A stretch of 64,000 bases of DNA, taken from Paramarasmius palmivorus. Lineage: Eukaryota > Basidiomycota > Agaricomycetes > Agaricales > Marasmiaceae. The stretch spans positions 372,001 to 436,000 of the forward strand of contig JAYKXP010000020.1 in assembly GCA_037176845.1 (NCBI GenBank). Direction: 5' to 3'. Shown here piece after piece: positions 7,773 to 51,243 of this stretch (position 1 is the stretch's first letter; the number at the start of each line of letters is the position of its first letter). The notes beneath the pieces are model-generated. The model saw nothing but the letters and a program-made list of their open reading frames with translations, was not told the origin of the DNA and ran no database searches. The position numbers and the translations under genes are program-made.

Positions 7773-9167
7773 TCAACCCGGCAGCGGTAACAAAACAACA
7801 GCCATATTCCTCGCACTCCCCTTCGCCTGATCAAACACCGGTACCAACTCCACTTTCCACTCACCACCTCCTTCTCCACGTAAAGCATCCTCAACCCACC
7901 GAACTCGATCGCCCAAAACAGCACTCTCAACCACAGGTCCTAATCTACACCTCCACATATGCAACTCCTCAACCTTTCTCGCCTTCTCCTCGTCCCACTC
8001 CCCTTTGAGAGACACCCCTAGCCCCAATTTCATCGACGCGCCTTCTAAAAACGCCTCCCACGACTCATAAGCGCTACGGGGGAGTTTACCGAGTCGGTAA
8101 TGTAATGGTGAGTTACCCAGTTCGTCTGGGTGTGTTTGCGCGCCCCAAGAGAAAGCAGGAGAGGCGATTGTGTTGGAGATCAGGTTTTGTCTCGCCGGCG
8201 GCGCTGATCTGGACTCAGATGGTGGGACGAAGACGTGTGCCCGAGAAGAAGAAGGAGAAGGAAGAGAGGTGGGAGGTAGAAGTGAGGTGAGAAGTGCGCG
8301 GTATACGACTTTCCGCACACTCAGGTCGTTTGGTGTTTGGTTTTCGGGGACTTGAGCAGCGAGGTGATACGCCGACGGGGGTAGTGGGTTTGGTAGTAGT
8401 GCTTCGTTGGAAGAGAATGTAGAAGAAGAGAGCGGAAAATCCCCAGGTCGAAGGAGGTTGTAACAACAAGGGATTGTTAGGACGGCGTTGATGTACCATC
8501 TTCTTCTATAGCTACCTGTACTTTGATTGGAATTTGAAGTGAAAAACGCTCTAAACGTATCCACTGAAAGCGACCCGCACGCATGCAGCGCGACCAGCGT
8601 CACCGGTACGTCGTCGTCGTCGGGAGCGAAAGACGCAACCCACTCATCAACAGCGCGAACGAGCGTTTCTGGTGTGATATGTATCGTTTTATGCGTTACT
8701 GACGCATTATAAACGTTTCTTCCTGTATCTCCTCCTCTACCTGCTCCTTTGCCTTCTTTTCCTTCTTTACCTTTACCTGCGATAGCAGCATCGGTAAGAA
8801 ACCCATCCGAATCCAACGCCAAAACCTTTTTCGCAGGTAACACACGCGTTAAAAAGCCTTGGCCTGCGCCGATGTCGACGATATACGGCGTATCGATGCC
8901 TTGGGAGTGTAAGCTGAGGAGGTAGGCTTCGAGACGTGTGATTTCGTGGAGCTTTTTGGAGGGGATGCCATGTAGAGTCCGCGTTTGGGGGAGTGCGATT
9001 GGGATTGGAGTGCGATCGACGGAGTGTCGTGAGATGTGAGCTACGAGTTGGGTTTGAGTGGATTCGGATAAGAGTTCTGAGAGATGGGTGAGGTGTGTGT
9101 CGGTAGCTTGGTTTGGGTGTATGTTGAGGAGAAGTGAGATTGTTTCTCGGAGAGAGGAACAAGTCAT
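7773..9167 (-). CDS. METTL25/RRNAD1-like methyltransferase
   Basis: A 464-residue single-exon protein. The SAM-binding motif IVDIGAGQGFLTRVL lies at residues 96-110, with an acidic residue at the end of the next strand (VLALDSD, 115-121). VALHACGSLS (192-201) and PCCYNLL (233-239) follow, and SKKLHEI is at 70-76. This combination is that of the Methyltransf_32 family (METTL25 and RRNAD1 relatives), which is widespread in eukaryotes; its substrate is poorly defined. An insert rich in Gly, Lys and Glu (131-150) is probably a flexible loop. It is the intact source of the relics at 4802-5235 and 11516-11605. It lies 165 bp downstream of CRN2 on the same strand. The TCANNNNNACATG-type start context is unremarkable. 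Confidence 0.85.
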   Translation of the reverse strand: MTCSSLRETISLLLNIHPNQATDTHLTHLSELLSESTQTQLVAHISRHSVDRTPIPIALPQTRTLHGIPSKKLHEITRLEAYLLSLHSQGIDTPYIVDIGAGQGFLTRVLPAKKVLALDSDGFLTDAAIAGKGKEGKEGKGAGRGGDTGRNVYNASVTHKTIHITPETLVRAVDEWVASFAPDDDDVPVTLVALHACGSLSVDTFRAFFTSNSNQSTGSYRRRWYINAVLTIPCCYNLLRPGDFPLSSSTFSSNEALLPNPLPPSAYHLAAQVPENQTPNDLSVRKVVYRALLTSLLPPTSLPSPSSSRAHVFVPPSESRSAPPARQNLISNTIASPAFSWGAQTHPDELGNSPLHYRLGKLPRSAYESWEAFLEGASMKLGLGVSLKGEWDEEKARKVEELHMWRCRLGPVVESAVLGDRVRWVEDALRGEGGGEWKVELVPVFDQAKGSARNMAVVLLPLPG

Positions 9168-9331
9168 GTCCGCGCGTCAAAAAAATAAAACTTAAACACA
9201 ACGACTGCAACACTCGAGCTAATGGCACTGAGACGGACAATGGACATGGCGGTAGGAGGAACATGAGGATTATGGTAGACAAAGAATGTGACCTCGGTCG
9301 CAAAATACATGTACATTGCAATTGAAAACTA

Positions 9332-13556: not shown

Positions 13557-13725
13557 CAGACTCCTACCCATTCATTGTAGGGAGATAGAAAAAGGAGGAC
13601 AAGCTATATCTGAGGGGATGGGAATTATATCGATTAATTTGGAAATTTACGTTACTTTTCTGAACCTTATTTCTTTTTCTTATCACCCTACAACGACTGG
13701 CATAATATGCAAGCGCCGCTTGGCC
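13557..13725 (+). repeat. 169-bp dispersed repeat, copy 1
   Basis: Nearly identical to 29558-29726 in opposite orientation, starting CAGACTCCTACCC and ending GCGCCGCTTGGCC. It contains an internal inverted pair TTGTAGGG..CCCTACAA about 120 bp apart, so it is MITE-like. No coding potential. Confidence 0.9.
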
Positions 13726-14443
13726 ATTGTTTGGCACTATCTCTGACGCCCGCGCCCATCTACTCTTGGTCCACTCATCACTCTTGCGACTACAGCGCTG
13801 TGACCTTGTCGTTCACTGCTGGGCTTTTCTCGTACAAACAAATCTATAAGCACTACGGCATCTGTATCAGGACCTGGGGAAGGCATTTCTGGGGTTGGCC
13901 CGACTGAATTTGGATGGAATTGGATCGATAGGTGTGTAATTTGGTCATCACCCCAGTAGCGTGAATGTTGAATAAGTCTTCTAGCCCTTCTGCACCGTCA
14001 TGAACATTGCCTAGCAGTTTCGACCTGTAGAGCCCTACTTCTTGGCATTCTCGCGACATCATTTTCATGGCTATAGTTCAACTATCCCGCGCCATGCGTT
14101 AACATCAATACCCCAGAGCTACCAGCCTCACCATGGCAGTATCATCAACGCTATACTGCTAGTAAGTACTTCACTGGCACATAGATAGACTGAGTTGCAG
14201 CCTCTACTTTCAATGTTTACACATTTCGCAACAAGCAATGGACTGAAGAGCACCCAAAAGGTTTAGGACACGGCTCATTTACTGTCAACACCAATGAATA
14301 TACACCACGTCACATAGGATAGCTTCGATAGTCATGTTTTAATTTTCGGGTTGAATTCAAGCTTTCTCATATACACTCAAGTATCGATATGATGGGCGCG
14401 GGCGTCAAAGATAGTGCCAGATAGTGCCAAACAATGGCCAAGC
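13718..14443. mobile_element. 726-bp non-coding element with terminal inverted repeats
   Basis: Its two ends are perfect inverted repeats over 24 bp (13718-13741 and 14420-14443; tip GCTTGGCCATTGTTTGGC). The similarity continues inward to CGCGCCCATC at about 13759, with a 10-bp direct duplication (AGATAGTGCC) on the right side. There is no convincing ORF, so this is a non-autonomous DNA transposon. It sits exactly between the 169-bp repeat and the tip of the large RecQ/DUF6589 element. Confidence 0.7.
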
Positions 14444-14598
14444 TAGTCTCGAACAGACCTTCTGGCGGTCATGCTGTTACCATATATAGATAATTTCTCG
14501 TGTTTGATCAAAGGCATAAAAATTTCGTCATCGAAATTCGGCGCATGGACACGCCAGAAGGTCTGGTGCATTTTTACCGGGCGACCCTCCCTCAGGCC
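14443..14598 (+). repeat. left terminal inverted repeat with nested palindrome
   Basis: Begins CTAGTCTCGAACAGACCTTC and ends CTCCCTCAGGCC. Inside it, CAGACCTTCTGGCG (14454-14467) is repeated as its perfect reverse complement at 14552-14565. Within that loop AATTTCG/CGAAATT (14521-14527/14532-14538) forms a small hairpin around TCAT. Confidence 0.9.
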
Positions 14599-14637
14599 CG
14601 AGCGTGACAGATAAGATGAGATAACCCAACTCCCAAG

Positions 14638-14661
14638 TGCCGCTAGGGCTCACTAGCGGCA
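14638..14661 (+). other. subterminal hairpin, left
   Basis: TGCCGCTAG / CTAGCGGCA form a perfect 9-bp stem with a 6-nt loop (GGCTCA), followed by a run of seven T. It lies about 40 bp inside the left terminal repeat and upstream of the helicase ATG. A counterpart exists at the right end (20535-20565). Confidence 0.85.
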
Positions 14662-14747
14662 ATTTTTTTCTGATTCACTATTTTCTCACCTCCATCTTGA
14701 CGCGTTAACCACATACTTGGCCGACTCCTGCCATATTAGTCGCCTGA

Positions 14748-17683
14748 ATGTCCCATGGCGCTAATCAATCTCGACACGACCAGTTAGCCCGGCGCTCTCA
14801 GCAGCTACTCCAGCGCGCTCGCGAGGATGCTGCTCAGAGCACAGGTTATGATTCGGAGAAAACACGGAACGAACTCCTGGAGTCATATAGAGCACTTAGT
14901 GCCCATACTGCACGTCCATGGCAGCTTGATGTTGCTGAGGCACTCGTTCTAAAACAAGATTGCCTAGTGATTGCAGGAACTGGCTCTGGAAAGACAGTTC
15001 CCTTCACCATTCCTCTCCTTTTACCGTGTAACCAAAACAAGATCGCTATTATTATTTCACCTTTAAAGATGCTTCAAAGCGAGCAGGTATGCCTCTCTGC
15101 AATGCTTATCACAGTGGTTTTATGACAAAGTTTCCAGGCCGAACGATTCTCTAAGCTCAGTATTCAAGCAGTCGCAGTCAACGGAGATACATGGGATCCA
15201 GCATTGGCACAGGTATGGTGGAAGTAGTCCATGTTCATCCTAACTTCTTAACGAGAACACACAGGAACTTCGGCGACAGGCTTATCGTGGAATTTTCTGT
15301 GGCCCTGAGATGATCATGAACTTTGAGGAGTTCAAGGAATGGCTGGTACAGCCAGAGACGCTTGAACGTGTCTTGTATCTTGCTGTTGATGAGGCACATT
15401 GTATCTCCACTTGGGGTGGTGATTTCCGTCCGGAATACAGTCAACTTGCGAAATTACGTTCTGTGCTTCCCAAAACACTCCCGGTTCTCGCAACTACAGC
15501 TACCGCTACTCCCCGTGTTCAAAAAGATATCTGTCAGGCTCTCGAGTTCGACTCTTCCGAAATCATGTATGTAAACCTGGGGAATGATCGTCCAAACATC
15601 TCACAGGAACTTCATATCATGGATAATGCATGCGACTATGATGCCATGATTCCGTTTCTCCCAGATCCAAATACACCTGTGAGTGAATGGAAGAAGACCC
15701 AAGTGTTCATTCATTCTGTCAGTCAGGCTATGACTGTCTGTCGCGAGATACGGAAACGGTATGGATACGAAGGCAGCAAAGCCATATGTAACATACACGC
15801 CAGAGGTTCTCGGAAGTGGAAGAGACAACGTCTAGAGGACTTTCGAAGTGGGAAAATCAAGGTTCTGGTTGCGACAGAAATCGGAAGCATGGTAACAGCC
15901 TTTTACCTTGTTTGGATACAGTTCCTGACACAGGCCTTTATAGGGAACAGACATTCCAGACATCGAAGTTGTCATTCAATTTGGGCTACCAGGGTCACTG
16001 GAAGTTTATACCCAACGTGCCGGACGTGCTGGACGGACATTCACCCTACGTTCCTGAGCTATTATGCTAGTTCCTAAATCAGCATATCTACGTGTCAAGA
16101 AGAAAAAGAAGCCTCCAGACAAAGTCACAGCAGATTCTGATGCCATGGCGTCAGCAGCAGGAGAGCTCTCTCTTGACCGCATATCCGAGCTCCAGGATGT
16201 TGACACTGATGGATATGTACCACTTCCTACGGCTGTGTTGTCTGAAATATCAGAGAATATTGTGGATGGTAAAGAGTGGAAAATGAAGGTGGAACCTTCT
16301 CTACGGACCTACATTATGGCATCAGTAGGAGTATGCCGACACGAGCTTCTCAATCAGTACTTCGATAACCCACCCTGAATACAAAGTAGGTCATCCCTTC
16401 CTTTTTCTCATCAGACTTCTCATTCTTGAATAATTAGGGCCACTTGGACGGTGCTGCGATTTATGTGATGGCATGGACCCTGCTCGTGAGATGTTGCAAA
16501 GTATAATACCACACGTGGAGCAGAGTGATGACGAGAATGAGAACAACATCGAGGACGAGAACCGTTCAAATACTGGTTCACGCCCCTGCACTCCACCACC
16601 CCTTCATTCACCTCCAGGAAGCGCACACTCGACGCCATCAAAAAGTACGAACAGGAACGGCAAAAGGACGATGGTAACCTCAGCCTCAGATAAACCAAGA
16701 TACCACCGGCGCCATGGACAACATCTCGCAAATGCAAAAGCGGCTTTAAATCATTGGCGAACACGTACTATGAAGGCACACTATAATCCAAGCCCTTTCA
16801 CACACAATGTCCTTCTCCCAGACACCCTTCTCACCTCTCTTGCGTCGAACCGTGACATCAAAACCCTCGACGACATCTCAACCATGATTTCGACACCATG
16901 GCCCTTCCTTCAGAAACATGGTCACGAGGTTCTCCGAGTTCTGGCTGCTATCGACGAAGAACATGAAATGCGCCAACAATATGAGCGGGATGAGAAGCGA
17001 AGGAAGAAGGAAGCAGAGAAAGAAGAGGAGGAGACACGAAAGCAGCATATCAGAGAAGCAAAGAAAGCTGAGAAGGTGCGATTGCAAAGGGAGAAGGATG
17101 TTGAGTCTAACAAAGTCGCGGCACAAAGGAGGGCGAATGCAGCAGCGGAAGCGGCGAGTCGCCTGGCGGCCGAGGAGAAACGGGCTGCAGCTAAGGAAGA
17201 GGCTGCGAGGAAGAAGGAAAACACTGCGTGTGCGGCATACCTGGAGAAAATGGCCAATCCATCTCGTCGCAGACGCAAGCCTAAGGTATGTCCACTAGTA
17301 TCTCTTTCTCATTAAACATTAATCTGAGGACATTCATTTAGGCTCCAAAAGGGCTCGAGAGATACCAAGCTGAGCTGAGCGCAGGTATGCATTCCGACAA
17401 AATCACGGAACTCAACCAAACACCAGCCACTACGACGGCATCAATGCCTGGTTCATCAACTCATGTGTACCATCTTTCACAGCATCCAACAACGCCATCT
17501 CGATACCCCTTTAGTCCGCGACGCCCTTCAACTATACAACAAACATCTTGTGTAACTCCATTCTACCATACTTCTCCACCGGCAGTCTCTACACACATTT
17601 CGTTTCCTCGTATTATATCCGTTCATCCCACTCCAAATATGATGACACAATCTCTCGCCGATCCTAACGATCCCTTTCTGTGA
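14748..17683 (+). pseudogene. RecQ-like DNA helicase, interrupted by two in-frame TGA codons
   Basis: Superfamily 2 helicase of RecQ type. Motif I AGTGSGKT is near residue 82, motif II is VDEAHC, then STWGGDFRPEY, ATTATATPRV and the motif VI region QRAGRAGRTF. The zinc-binding part CRHELLNQYFDN..CCDLCD follows after an intron (16386-16437). The C-terminal third is a charged coiled coil (EEKRAAAKEEAARKKEN) and a Ser/Thr/Pro tail; there is no HRDC domain. Introns lie at 15087-15137, 15213-15264, 15892-15943, 16386-16437 and 17286-17341, all in phase. Two stops break the frame: TGA at 16055-16057 (after RAGRTFTLRS) and TGA at 16376-16378 (after YFDNPP). Both are one C-to-T change from CGA. RecQ helicases unwind DNA; here it is cargo or part of the transposition machinery of the surrounding element. 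Confidence 0.8.
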
Positions 17684-17720
17684 CCTTTTAATATGATTTT
17701 AATGCTTACTCCTTCGTATA

Positions 17721-20497
17721 TTAGTCGTAGTCTTGTTGATGCGAACGCGGAAAATATCGGTCGTTTGCCCACTTCTGTAACCAATTACCATAAAGCACCT
17801 TTTCAGCCCCGACTATCATATAATCCTTTGCCACATCATCTTTTAGCTTTCGACCATCTTGGTGTGAATGTTCTGTGTTGTATGACTGTTGAAGTCGCTT
17901 GACGTCTTCATCCTTCTTCGGCACCGTATGGTGTTTGCCCCTGGTGTATGTCTCAAACTGTTCTTCGATATGATCTGTGACCGAGCGAATCACTGGGATT
18001 GCAGGATGTAACTTTTTCATATATTCCCAGTCAATGTTAGGCCCTTGAGAGTGATATGTTACCTGTGTACGAACATCAATACTTTTGGCAGTATGAACAA
18101 TGCGCATGGGATGTACCTTGATGTCTTTGACATTATGTTCTTGCACTTGGTCAAATGGTACAAACGAGTTCGACCGACCAGTCGAGGTCATGACCCAGCA
18201 GTTGAGCCGAACGTACTCACTAGTAAAGCCAAACGGAAATAGTTAGCCAAGGATATAGCTCTGCAACGCTCTATAGTGACTTACGCAATCTCTGTAGTCC
18301 ACTCACGATGAAGTCCCTGAAGAAGCTCGATACATTCCAAGGCATAGTTGCCATTACCGCCCCCAACAAACCGAAAGAAGAAAAAAGGGAGAAGGCTTTC
18401 CATCATCCCGATATCGCCGGAGCGTATAGACTGCCGGAGAATGATATATGGAAGTATATCCCGCAAGAACATAGTATGCTGGCGCTTGAGGGCATCTTGA
18501 CGCTCTTTTGGAAGTGAATCCATCAGGTTGAGAGCCTCAGAGCTGGCATGCTTCTCATAGACCTGTTCGGCCAGACAACGTAAAGCTTCCGGGGGTTTGT
18601 TGCGAAGTTCAGCAAGATCATCTACCTTTGCCTCCTCTTTCCAACACTCTAAGATATGTGCCTCGGTAACATGATGCAAGCCTTCGTCGAGGTGATGATG
18701 GAATATGCCCTTGGTTTGGACCTTGCTAAGCCCCTTTCGTTCCAGCAAGTTAAACGAACTTAGCAAACCACTACCTTTGGCACGCCCAAGATACTGGTTG
18801 TGATAGCTATTCGCCGCTGTCATTGCAAAATGAAACCACCCAAACGGAGCGATTAACCAGTCTAGACGCTCAAATGAATTAATGTCCTCCGCACGTTGCT
18901 GATAAAGACCACGAAGCCGCGATACCGTGAGCTGATCTCCCATGAAGAAGAACACCTTATTCCACCCAATGTTCTGTTTCGTGCTATTGTCTCCCATCCC
19001 GATCTGACACAACCATTCCGGAATCAGCTGGATATGGTCTTCATAGCTAGCTTCTGCTGATTTGACTGTGCCGAGTAGGTATTGTTGCGTCACCTGTTCT
19101 GGCCCTGTTGGAAGCCCACGATGGCGAGGTGGCAGCTGGAGAAGCGGGGAACCCTTGTGACGGTACTTCTTGATATCAAAGTTCGGTGAATCGAGAAGAT
19201 ACTGCAGGATGACATGCACTGCACGATCTTTGATCAGAGGTTGAGCCCTCTGCGCAAGCTCGAAAACATCCAGAGATGTAAGTGGTGATTTGATGCCCTC
19301 TGACCGTTTCTCCTGGAGATTACAATTGGCAGTGGCAGAGAGAGGAACTGCTGATGGACGGACATAAACTGTGCACGCCGTTCCACTGTTGAACTGCTTG
19401 AGATTGGCAATTCTCTGAGAATAAACCTTCTTCATGATTTCGACATTGTCATAGGTCAGCTCCCACGAGCATTGGGGAAGGAGCGAGCAAACCTCCTTCA
19501 TTTTCTCGTGCGCTATTCGAGGTGTGGCTTCAGTTGTCCATTTAAAGCTCATAGTGAGCCCAAGTGCATGCAATGTGTCGAACGCCTTCGCGGAGATCCC
19601 TTTGAACTTGAAGTACACAGCAAACATTTTCTGCATGCGGTTCCTCCTATTATGACGGCTATAGGACAGAAGGGATATGAATAGAACCATCATCTGGGCT
19701 TCCATTAAGTTACACCACTCAGAGATGGACAAGATTCAGTGCCGACTCACCTTGTTATCGCTCTTCCGCACTTTCTCCTGTTCCCTCCGCTGTCGAGTCA
19801 CAGCTAAATCCTCTAGCATGTTGGAAAGGATCGGCGCTTGCTGTAGAAGCATGCCCCGCATTGACTCAAAATCAAATTGAGTGAGTTCTTCTGCACGAAG
19901 GTCTGCATTGTCCTCTGTGTCTGTCTTGAAGTAATCTCCCACTGTCTCTAGTTCATCCTCCATCGCCCGACCAACAATCTCTCTCGAAACCTGAACCAGA
20001 ATCTTCTGTCCTCCAGAGGCCCTCTTCTTCTTATACTTTTTTGATCTCGGCGGTTGGAACCAACGTCTCATGATCCCTAATAGCTCATCGCTCAGCAATA
20101 ACGATGTCCGCGCATACTGGATAGCAGCATCTTGGACACACGACTCATCTCCCCAGCTCAGTTTATCCAGGAATATCGGCAAATCCATTCCCTCCTCTCT
20201 CATACAATCCAAAACCCTTCGTACACTTGCAGCCATAGGTCTGCAGCCCAATTTCTCCCTCAGAAGGCGGGTGTTCCGGATGAAAGGATTTTCGGGACTC
20301 TGTTCTGTAGTATCATAGGTTCCAGCAATGCCCATCTCAGCGTCATTGTCATTGTCGTCGTCGCTGCTGTCATCCTCAGATTCGTCTTCTGATGACTCGA
20401 TGTCGTAAAGTCGGGAGTGCTCTAGATGTTCAAAATCGTCGTCGTCGTCAAATAGATTGAAATTGTCATTTGTGGGATTAATGACTGGTGGATACAT
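17721..20497 (-). CDS. DUF6589 protein, candidate transposase of the element
   Basis: Exons about 19748-20497, 18281-19718, 18122-18195 and 17721-18070; roughly 860 residues, open throughout. The first exon is acidic (DDDDDFEHLEHS, SEDESEDDSSDDDNDND). The middle has WELTYDNVEI, FFFMGDQLTVSRLRGLYQQR, SFERLDWLIAPFGWFHFAM and GNYALECIELLQGLHREW. The end has QEHNVKDIKV, GPNIDWEYMKKLHPAIP and GRKLKDD. These are hallmarks of DUF6589, a family abundant in Agaricomycetes and of unknown function. The invariant acidic residues in YDN, GDQ and NYALE are spaced like an RNase-H-type catalytic triad, which fits a transposase; this is my inference. It is transcribed away from the right terminal repeat, with a hairpin about 40 bp upstream of the ATG at 20497. 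Confidence 0.75.
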
Positions 20498-20534
20498 GAA
20501 AGAGAGATGTGTAGACGACAAGTGAGCGAGCGTG

Positions 20535-20565
20535 AAAGTGCCGGTCGAGCATTGACCGGCACTTT
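20535..20565 (-). other. subterminal hairpin, right
   Basis: AAAGTGCCGGTC / GACCGGCACTTT form a perfect 12-bp stem with a 7-nt loop. It sits 24 bp inside the right terminal repeat and upstream of the DUF6589 start, mirroring the left hairpin, with which it shares the opening AGTGCCG. Confidence 0.85.
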
Positions 20566-20588
20566 TGTGTGACTCAACCGTGACATGC

Positions 20589-20746
20589 GGCCTGAGGGAG
20601 GGTCGCCCGGTAAAAATGCACCAGACCTTCTGGCGTGTCCGTGCACGCGATTTCGATGACGAAATCGAAACTCGTCCACATCAAACGTCGAAATTATCTA
20701 TATACGGTAATTGCGCGTGACCGCCAGAAGGTCTGTTCGAGACTAG
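20589..20746 (-). repeat. right terminal inverted repeat with nested palindrome
   Basis: Reverse complement of the left repeat with scattered differences. CAGACCTTCTGGCG (20622-20635) and its perfect complement (20722-20735) form the large stem. CGATTTCG/CGAAATCG (20648-20655/20660-20667) form the inner hairpin around the same TCAT loop (read in the inward direction). Ends CGAGACTAG. Confidence 0.9.
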
Positions 20747-49099: not shown

Positions 49100-50995
49100 T
49101 CAGCGTACATCATTCTCGGTAGAAGCGCATCGTGTGCCGCCGCTGTCGGCGATAGGGGAAGGGGAGGATGAAGGTAACATCTGCCTCCGTGCATCAGTGA
49201 TCATCTCTGTTATGGTGCTCTTCACCCCAGACATGTGTTGATCGTGTGTCGGTAATGGGCTGTGCTGTTCCTTAGCCTGATTATGGGCTGCTTCCTTCTT
49301 CCTGGCTATAGCCACCTCCATAGCAGCCAAAATCGCCCTTTTTACTAGCCTCTGTGGAACTCTGTCTGACAGCATTACGGCAGGAGGCGAAGAGGCGGTA
49401 CCGTCAATAATAGCTGCAGTGGGAACCAGTACACCAGGCCGACGCTCTGAGATCGCACCAGGCTTGGGAACCAATCCAGGAAGTCGACCATACCTCAACA
49501 GCCTCTCCACCCAATACCGATTCGAGAACTCGGGTATCGGCTCAGGTTTGATTTCGAATCCATATAGCCGTTGACCCCAAATTGGTGCGGCGTCAGGTTC
49601 GCGCTCTATCTCCCTGTTGAGGCGCCGCGCAAGACTATTAACTATAATGGTATAGGTTCTGGGGTTGACACAGATCCGCCTCTCTTCAAAGGTTTGAAGA
49701 ACGACAAGTGCGCCCACATAATCCTTCCTGACGAAAAACGCTTGTAATGCACGATTCATCATGGATTGCACGGCATCCAGAGCAGAGGGGTCAAGTGTTC
49801 GCCCTTTGGTAGACGAGAGTATGTGTGTATATGCATCGGCGAAAATAAGGCGCGGCCGTAGAAAGGTAGAGAACCGAGGCGAAGTGAACAGCGATGGACG
49901 ACCCGAAGGTGTAGTCTGCGCCGAAATGAGCTTGAACAGACTTTGGTACACGGATGTGGTTGGAGTCACAATTCCGTGTTTGGTCGCCTGCTTCAGCGCG
50001 TCGTAAAGTGCCAATGTCCTGCGTACATCACGCTTTTTGGCGTAGTGGGCGATGAGAGTGCCAAAAAGATTGTTGTCAACGGCAACTTCTGACTCCCGAA
50101 GGGATTTCAATACCCGGTCCACGGCGAACTCGCTGAGTGGATCCACGGTATCGAGTGAGGATAGAATACTGATGTAAGGATGGGAATGAACGACGGGATC
50201 CACTTCGTTCTCGTTTATTTCCATTTCCTCGTCCTTTCCATAACGGGAAATCACTTCGAGAGCTTCATTGACTAGGCCATCCTTGGCAAGTGCCCCAGCT
50301 AGGAGATTGACAATCTTCCGAGGAGGCGAATAATCCGGTCCTCGACGGGATATGAACTTCCGTACAAGGTGAGCCTGACTATGTGGCGGTAACTCCAGGT
50401 CTTTCCAGACACTGAGGAAATGTATAAAATCATCTTCGCCGAACGCTTTGGTATCTGAGAAGATCCTTTCCAACGCGTCCATAGCCTCCGCGGAGGACAC
50501 GGATTGATTGGCGATACCAATGGCAATCATATTGGCATTATTTCGTTGGGAGCTAGGGTACTTTTCCTTTTGCATGCGCTGATAAACAGTCACAGCTTCG
50601 CGGAACCGGTGATGGTGAATTAAGAGAGATATAAGGTTTTCGAAGATAGCATGTCGAGAAGGGGCTTTCCGGTAACGGGATTCGGACAGACGACGATGAA
50701 TGAAGGATTGTGCATTGGACTGCTTTCTTGCGGGTGCAAATGATATGAATTGCTCGACTGAAGAAATCAAAGGTTTCGGGCTATCGACCACGGATTCGTC
50801 ATCCTGGTGTGGATCCTTCCTGAGCACCCCCTTCTTGTTTGGTTTCATCCGCGCGGTCTTCCGACCTGTATGACCCGCACCAGACGTTTGACCGTCTACA
50901 CTCTCTGCATCTGTGCCATTTGTCTTCCCCGTAGCTCCGAGATGAGCACCAACACGCCTCCACTGTGTTGGCTTTGGTGGCTCGGTTGAAGCCAT
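49100..50995 (-). CDS. pentatricopeptide-repeat-like protein
   Basis: One long exon; the first ATG is at 50995 (MASTEPPKPTQWRRVGAHLG), since the frame upstream of it opens only with a TTG. After a basic, disordered start, helical repeat pairs are visible: HAIFENLISLLIHHHRFREA, VTVYQRMQKEKYPSSQRNNA, LVNEALEVISRYGK, LFGTLIAHYAKKRDVRRTLA, LYDALKQ..VTPTTSVYQSLF and VLQTFEERRICVNPRTYTII. These follow the 35-residue PPR rhythm, so the protein probably binds organellar RNA. A clear mitochondrial presequence is not obvious at this start. Its start lies head-to-head with the next gene, about 250 bp away. Confidence 0.75.
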   Translation of the reverse strand: MASTEPPKPTQWRRVGAHLGATGKTNGTDAESVDGQTSGAGHTGRKTARMKPNKKGVLRKDPHQDDESVVDSPKPLISSVEQFISFAPARKQSNAQSFIHRRLSESRYRKAPSRHAIFENLISLLIHHHRFREAVTVYQRMQKEKYPSSQRNNANMIAIGIANQSVSSAEAMDALERIFSDTKAFGEDDFIHFLSVWKDLELPPHSQAHLVRKFISRRGPDYSPPRKIVNLLAGALAKDGLVNEALEVISRYGKDEEMEINENEVDPVVHSHPYISILSSLDTVDPLSEFAVDRVLKSLRESEVAVDNNLFGTLIAHYAKKRDVRRTLALYDALKQATKHGIVTPTTSVYQSLFKLISAQTTPSGRPSLFTSPRFSTFLRPRLIFADAYTHILSSTKGRTLDPSALDAVQSMMNRALQAFFVRKDYVGALVVLQTFEERRICVNPRTYTIIVNSLARRLNREIEREPDAAPIWGQRLYGFEIKPEPIPEFSNRYWVERLLRYGRLPGLVPKPGAISERRPGVLVPTAAIIDGTASSPPAVMLSDRVPQRLVKRAILAAMEVAIARKKEAAHNQAKEQHSPLPTHDQHMSGVKSTITEMITDARRQMLPSSSPSPIADSGGTRCASTENDVR

Positions 50996-51243
50996 CGTGT
51001 CCACGATGATCGAGAACCGGACCAAAAGGTCTGGCTAACCGCTAGGGTGCGAGTTGAAAGAAGATTTAAGGCCAGCCGCATGTAACATGGGAGATTAAGA
51101 CATAGAATCGAGGAAGAGCAAACGTAGCGTGAAATTTTTGGAGACAAAGGTTCCAGCGCCTTGCTGTCACAGCTGTCACGTTGGGCGCTTACAACACGGA
51201 GGTGCGACCACGTGGACCCTTCATCTCTTGGCCTCGCACCACG

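Follow-up and report, generated by a model that had tools for sequence, protein, structure and literature searches.

The window analysed here, a stretch of 64,000 nucleotides from contig JAYKXP010000020.1 of Paramarasmius palmivorus (positions 372,001 to 436,000), contains a unit of 6302 bp in which two genes, a plus-strand gene for a RecQ-family helicase and a minus-strand DUF6589 gene, lie tail to tail between terminal inverted repeats (TIRs) of 156 and 158 bp (Table 1). The repeat arms as detected, 14443-14598 and 20589-20746, are 84% identical over 156-158 bp. The true ends likely lie one base further inward on each side, at a TAG ... CTA pair (14444 and 20745), because the target-site duplications (TSDs) of related units begin there. 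An initial annotation had described inverted repeats of ~157 bp around two convergent genes and had proposed that RecQ and DUF6589 travel together as one class of DNA transposon. The structure is as it described, with one protein matching E. coli RecQ (1oyw, E=3.8e-34) and the other the family PF20231 (E=4.2e-86), and the proposal is supported by TSDs in relatives, by linkage at 17 of 29 DUF6589 loci and by co-divergence of the two proteins.

The whole unit recurs on contig C53 (C53:352696-362792), ~98% identical and between different flanks, so that the structure in the window cannot be put down to chance. In the C53 copy, GTGCTGTAT is found on either side, directly outside TAG...CTA, which is an exact 9-bp TSD. 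Exact 9-bp TSDs were present in 4 of the 14 units examined (C53, C52, C22 and C157), and near TSDs in two more (8/8 at C214a, 8/9 at C166). The other 8 of the 14 units have no TSD, and the window copy is among them, with TGGCCAAGC and GAGCGCGAC at its two flanks. On its left side the window copy abuts a unit of 726 bp (13718..14443) whose 25-nt inverted ends are perfect and of which no second full copy was found; its right end is the base adjoining the transposon, and this may account for the absent TSD. The missing TSD is also what one would expect if two host genes happened to lie between unrelated inverted repeats. For the class this is refuted by the 98% identical unit with its exact TSD elsewhere and by the linkage and co-divergence of the two genes, and for the window itself we give it hardly any credit. 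Based on these sequence comparisons, we conclude that the units form a class of mobile TIR transposons.

The window and C53 copies differ by 121 substituted sites and 6 gap columns, one of which, at the first base, is a slicing artefact. At 97 of the 121 sites a C or G of the window copy stands opposite T or A on C53 (the reverse is seen at 17). CpG accounts for 84 of the 97, a bias that speaks for methylation-type decay of the copy on C53. Its DUF6589 gene is moreover broken by two nested insertions. One, of 1.9 kb (C53:356032-357973), is hAT-like, with TAGGGTTTC-type inverted ends and an 8-bp duplication, CTGTAACC; the second, of ~1.84 kb (C53:360060-361900), lies in the first DUF6589 exon.

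Searching the genome with the TIR yielded 11 matches on six contigs (C20, C53, C166, C10, C214 and C36), all match lists being lower bounds. The inverted pairs anticipated by the initial annotation were found for every match apart from a C214 copy that the start of its contig truncates. Its second expectation, that the ends would not occur without the genes, held for four of the six contigs. On C10, end fragment to end fragment spans less than 500 bp, and C166, which extends over 13.6 kb, has both ends, the near TSD and part of the helicase, with no DUF6589 among the matches listed; both lack the full pair among these matches and look like deletion or disruption derivatives. C214:1-17750 holds two copies of one DUF6589 and RecQ element, ~11.6 kb apart and with equal DUF6589 scores, the first being the truncated one. 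Nine further DUF6589 loci with a nearby RecQ match were read (C15, C22, C163, C115, C52, C171, C91, C157 and C94). The exact TSDs at C22, C52 and C157 flank TAG...CTA ends. A search for TIRs and TSDs found no TSD-flanked end pair at the other six: C91 has a 36-bp inverted repeat and no fitting TSD, at C94 a 29-bp inverted repeat accompanies a single recognisable end, nested repeats obscure C171, and C15, C163 and C115 gave no clear TIR. When the joined flanks of the C53 and C22 copies were searched in the same genome as candidate empty sites, none of the matches listed spanned either junction.

Linkage of the two genes was then measured over the genome. A RecQ-like match lies within 8 kb at 17 of the 29 DUF6589 loci, for 0.29 expected under random placement (42 merged RecQ-like loci at E up to 0.001, a count that may miss distant helicases). 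Convergent orientation prevails, with 15 of the 17 pairs; at C157 the genes are divergent and at C21 in tandem, so the gene order is not fixed. In other species, pairs were inferred from equally sized contigs within one species, strains being merged. Among the best 120 of 7912 helicase matches, 64 were eligible and 27 paired, against 4.0 expected if genomes of 40 Mb are assumed; two of the 27 share one Daedaleopsis contig. Contigs below 300 kb hold five of the 27 (0.11 expected), and some of those on large contigs may be due to chance.

Over 26 inferred pairs from other Agaricomycetes, the distance matrices of the two proteins are correlated with r = 0.906 (Mantel), and over the 11 Mycena pairs alone with r = 0.926, a value that 0 of 2000 permutations reached in either case, keeping in mind that kinship of species can raise such a correlation. 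Where a species has two pairs, matched partners can be compared with swapped ones: the matched arrangement was better in M. polygramma (0.934 vs 0.573) and M. maculata (0.962 vs 0.876), and hardly better in Schizophyllum commune (0.896 vs 0.867) and Favolaschia (0.958 vs 0.957). When the window family is compared with that of C36, the ratio of nonsynonymous to synonymous substitution rates (dN/dS) is 0.10 for the helicase, with dS above 2 and thus near saturation. For DUF6589, where dS was not computable, the nonsynonymous and synonymous proportions (pN and pS) are 0.22 and 0.77. The same comparison of the window copy with the one on C53 gives ratios of 0.51 and 0.55 for the two genes, as expected for decaying copies. 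Judged from this purifying selection between families, both proteins were constrained over the longer term, which makes the helicase more than passive cargo.

In Pfam, DUF6589 is a family without stated function. The window gene has GT-AG introns and encodes a single open protein without internal stop. Its predicted fold has as best structural matches, on a second look at Foldseek's top 1000, the Hermes and P-element transposases, and a candidate catalytic triad (D331, D502, E746) falls on conserved D, D and E residues. DUF6589 is therefore a predicted DDE transposase. The hAT family (Hermes) and the P element thus come closest among solved folds, and their 8-bp TSDs are close in length. They differ from the window class, which has a RecQ gene, whose four longest exact TSDs are of 9 bp, and in which a domain scan of three transposase-gene frames found no hAT and no P Pfam domain, only DUF6589 being above the cut-off; hAT was rejected on this ground. 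For MULE elements a 9-bp TSD would fit. The same scan gave no match to PF10551, named as the MULE domain in a passage of PMC8290104, and MULE was likewise set aside. Helitrons, which have neither TIR nor TSD and encode Rep/HUH and a PIF1 helicase, were ruled out by the presence of TIRs and TSDs and by a helicase of the RecQ type.

The four-exon helicase model starting at 14748 contains the motifs GTGSGKT, DEAHC and QRAGRAGR. Codon 385 is an in-frame TGA, and a second TGA, which may sit inside an unmodelled intron, directly follows the modelled frame. At both stop positions, the sequence of the copy on C53 is different. Further downstream, the two frames scanned in 16434..17683 matched no family above the cut-off. 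Because its helicase frame is interrupted, its transposase frame being open, the window copy is probably unable to move alone now. Some RecQ relatives beside other DUF6589 genes have variant motifs. At C163 (L051:5628-6521) NEEAH stands at the expected DEAH box, possibly a helicase that has lost its ATPase activity, and those at C22 (L050:2001-3827) and C115 (L052:4654-6495) belong to a RecQ-like subfamily with DEAD instead of DEAH as motif II. Away from the element, the open frames 7776-9176 (-) and 49103-51034 (-) of the window encode Methyltransf_32 and PPR repeats and are ordinary host genes.

Table 1. Features of the element in the window.
Feature	Position	Strand	Remarks
Whole element	14444..20745	.	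ends set by TSDs of relatives; second copy C53:352696-362792, 98% identical
Left TIR, 156 bp	14444..14599	+	starts TAGTCTCGAA
Left end, outer arm of internal inverted repeat (CAGACCTTCTGGCGGTCATGC)	14454..14474	+	0/500 shuffles reach score
Left end, inner arm, inverted copy of outer arm	14543..14565	-	
RecQ-family helicase gene	14748..16375	+	exons 14748-15086, 15138-15212, 15265-15891, 15944 to ~16375
Possible 3' helicase exons	16434..17683	+	open frames; charged, low complexity; putative, model uncertain
DUF6589 gene, predicted DDE transposase	17721..20497	-	884 aa; exons 20497-19751, 19693-18285, 18219-17721
Right TIR, 158 bp	20588..20745	-	
Right end, inner arm	20622..20645	+	
Right end, outer arm of internal inverted repeat	20712..20735	-	0/500 shuffles reach score

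The initial annotation knew of no described transposon type with this gene pair. This part did not hold, since a type with a transposase, a helicase and 9-10-bp TSDs, AcademH, is in print. Kojima 2020 (Mob DNA 11:15) reportedly described it as an Academ transposase paired with a helicase. Passages in citing papers give it 9-10-bp TSDs and an encoded helicase (PMC10045372) and a low copy number in Basidiomycota, Ascomycota and Mucoromycota (PMC10799480). The window class has the features expected of AcademH: TIRs, established by inverted-repeat detection and alignment, a RecQ-family helicase beside the transposase, a DDD/E transposase as judged from the predicted fold and the conserved D, D and E, a basidiomycete host, and TSDs of 9 bp, twice 8. 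The window thus very probably holds a single copy of an AcademH-type DNA transposon that carries two genes between its TIRs, with DUF6589 as the DDE transposase and the RecQ-family helicase as an accessory protein. AcademX, which has a nuclease instead of the helicase and 3-4-bp TSDs according to the passage in PMC10045372, would then belong to the same superfamily.

The comparison with AcademH is one of gene content, host range and TSD length as described in citing papers. The class could instead be a superfamily of its own whose RecQ helicase was gained independently of AcademH, convergence having produced an identical gene pair and TSD length. In line with this, two protein searches gave only fungal-named or unnamed proteins, all with PF20231; one of them, an alignment search aimed at animal Academ or nuclease-bearing relatives, gave 28 matches from a list of at most 8000 candidates. 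A search of PDB sequences with the DUF6589 profile A1 gave no match at E up to 1. Given that the two genes, the occurrence in fungi and the length of the TSD all fit the published description as far as it is quoted, we consider such a convergence improbable. Kolobok elements have TTAA as TSD, and the TSDs found here are 8-9 bp long and vary in sequence. This separates the window class from KolobokH, a Kolobok lineage that a passage of PMC9587614 describes as restricted to fungi and as combining a RecQ helicase with a DDD/E transposase, both of which it shares with the elements studied here. The helicase of KolobokH is placed there downstream of the transposase domain, whereas the window genes are on opposite strands, as are most linked pairs, being convergent. 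Assignment to KolobokH is therefore very improbable.

The transposon would move by cut and paste. The DUF6589 transposase would bind and cut the element ends and join them to a target opened by staggered cuts 9 bp apart, the fill-in of which would yield the 9-bp TSD. The helicase, inherited together with the transposase, would most likely separate strands, either while the ends are processed or while the donor or target site is repaired or replicated.

The ends themselves share an architecture. Most start with TAGNCTYG (C166L and C22L deviate), and in most a motif further in is followed by its own inverted copy. In 9 of the 15 ends scored, the motif begins at position 10-12 and its inverted copy lies 7-69 bp further in. 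For 11 of the 15, no more than one block shuffle in 500 reached the score; of these, C52L and C94R pass through overlapping alignments starting at 6-7. Four ends did not pass: C166L (14 of 500), C214aL (19), C166R (83) and C22L (324). Some ends are not independent (C20/C53, C36/C214, C52/C94), and the scoring left aside C53L, C36R, C214b, C10, C91 and C94L. The motif differs between families: CAGACCTTCTGGCG in the window family, CAGACCCTC in C36/C214, CAAGACTTTATTATC in C22, and a CCAGYCGC-like motif in C52 and C157. Of 200 shuffles of the window copy's left end, 199 fold less well as single-stranded DNA than the end itself (z -3.65). With a motif that varies and an arrangement that is kept, these could be purpose-built fold-back ends, which RecQ would open so that the arms extrude as hairpins or draw paired transposase sites together. 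We offer this helicase-assisted transpososome assembly, a mode not known to us for any TIR transposon, as a rather doubtful speculation.

The AcademH type was thus already known, and what is added here is DUF6589 as its predicted transposase, together with the TAGNCTYG-type terminus and the internal fold-back repeat. A link between DUF6589 and AcademH was not found in the literature searched, where DUF6589 had no text match and the one for PF20231 was unrelated; it may nonetheless be published. With a concrete predicted function for DUF6589, many unnamed mushroom genes would become annotatable as transposon genes, and part of the RecQ-like genes in these genomes probably belong to the cargo of transposons and not to the repair machinery. 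Finally, the co-divergence of transposase and helicase makes it testable why a TIR transposon would need a helicase.
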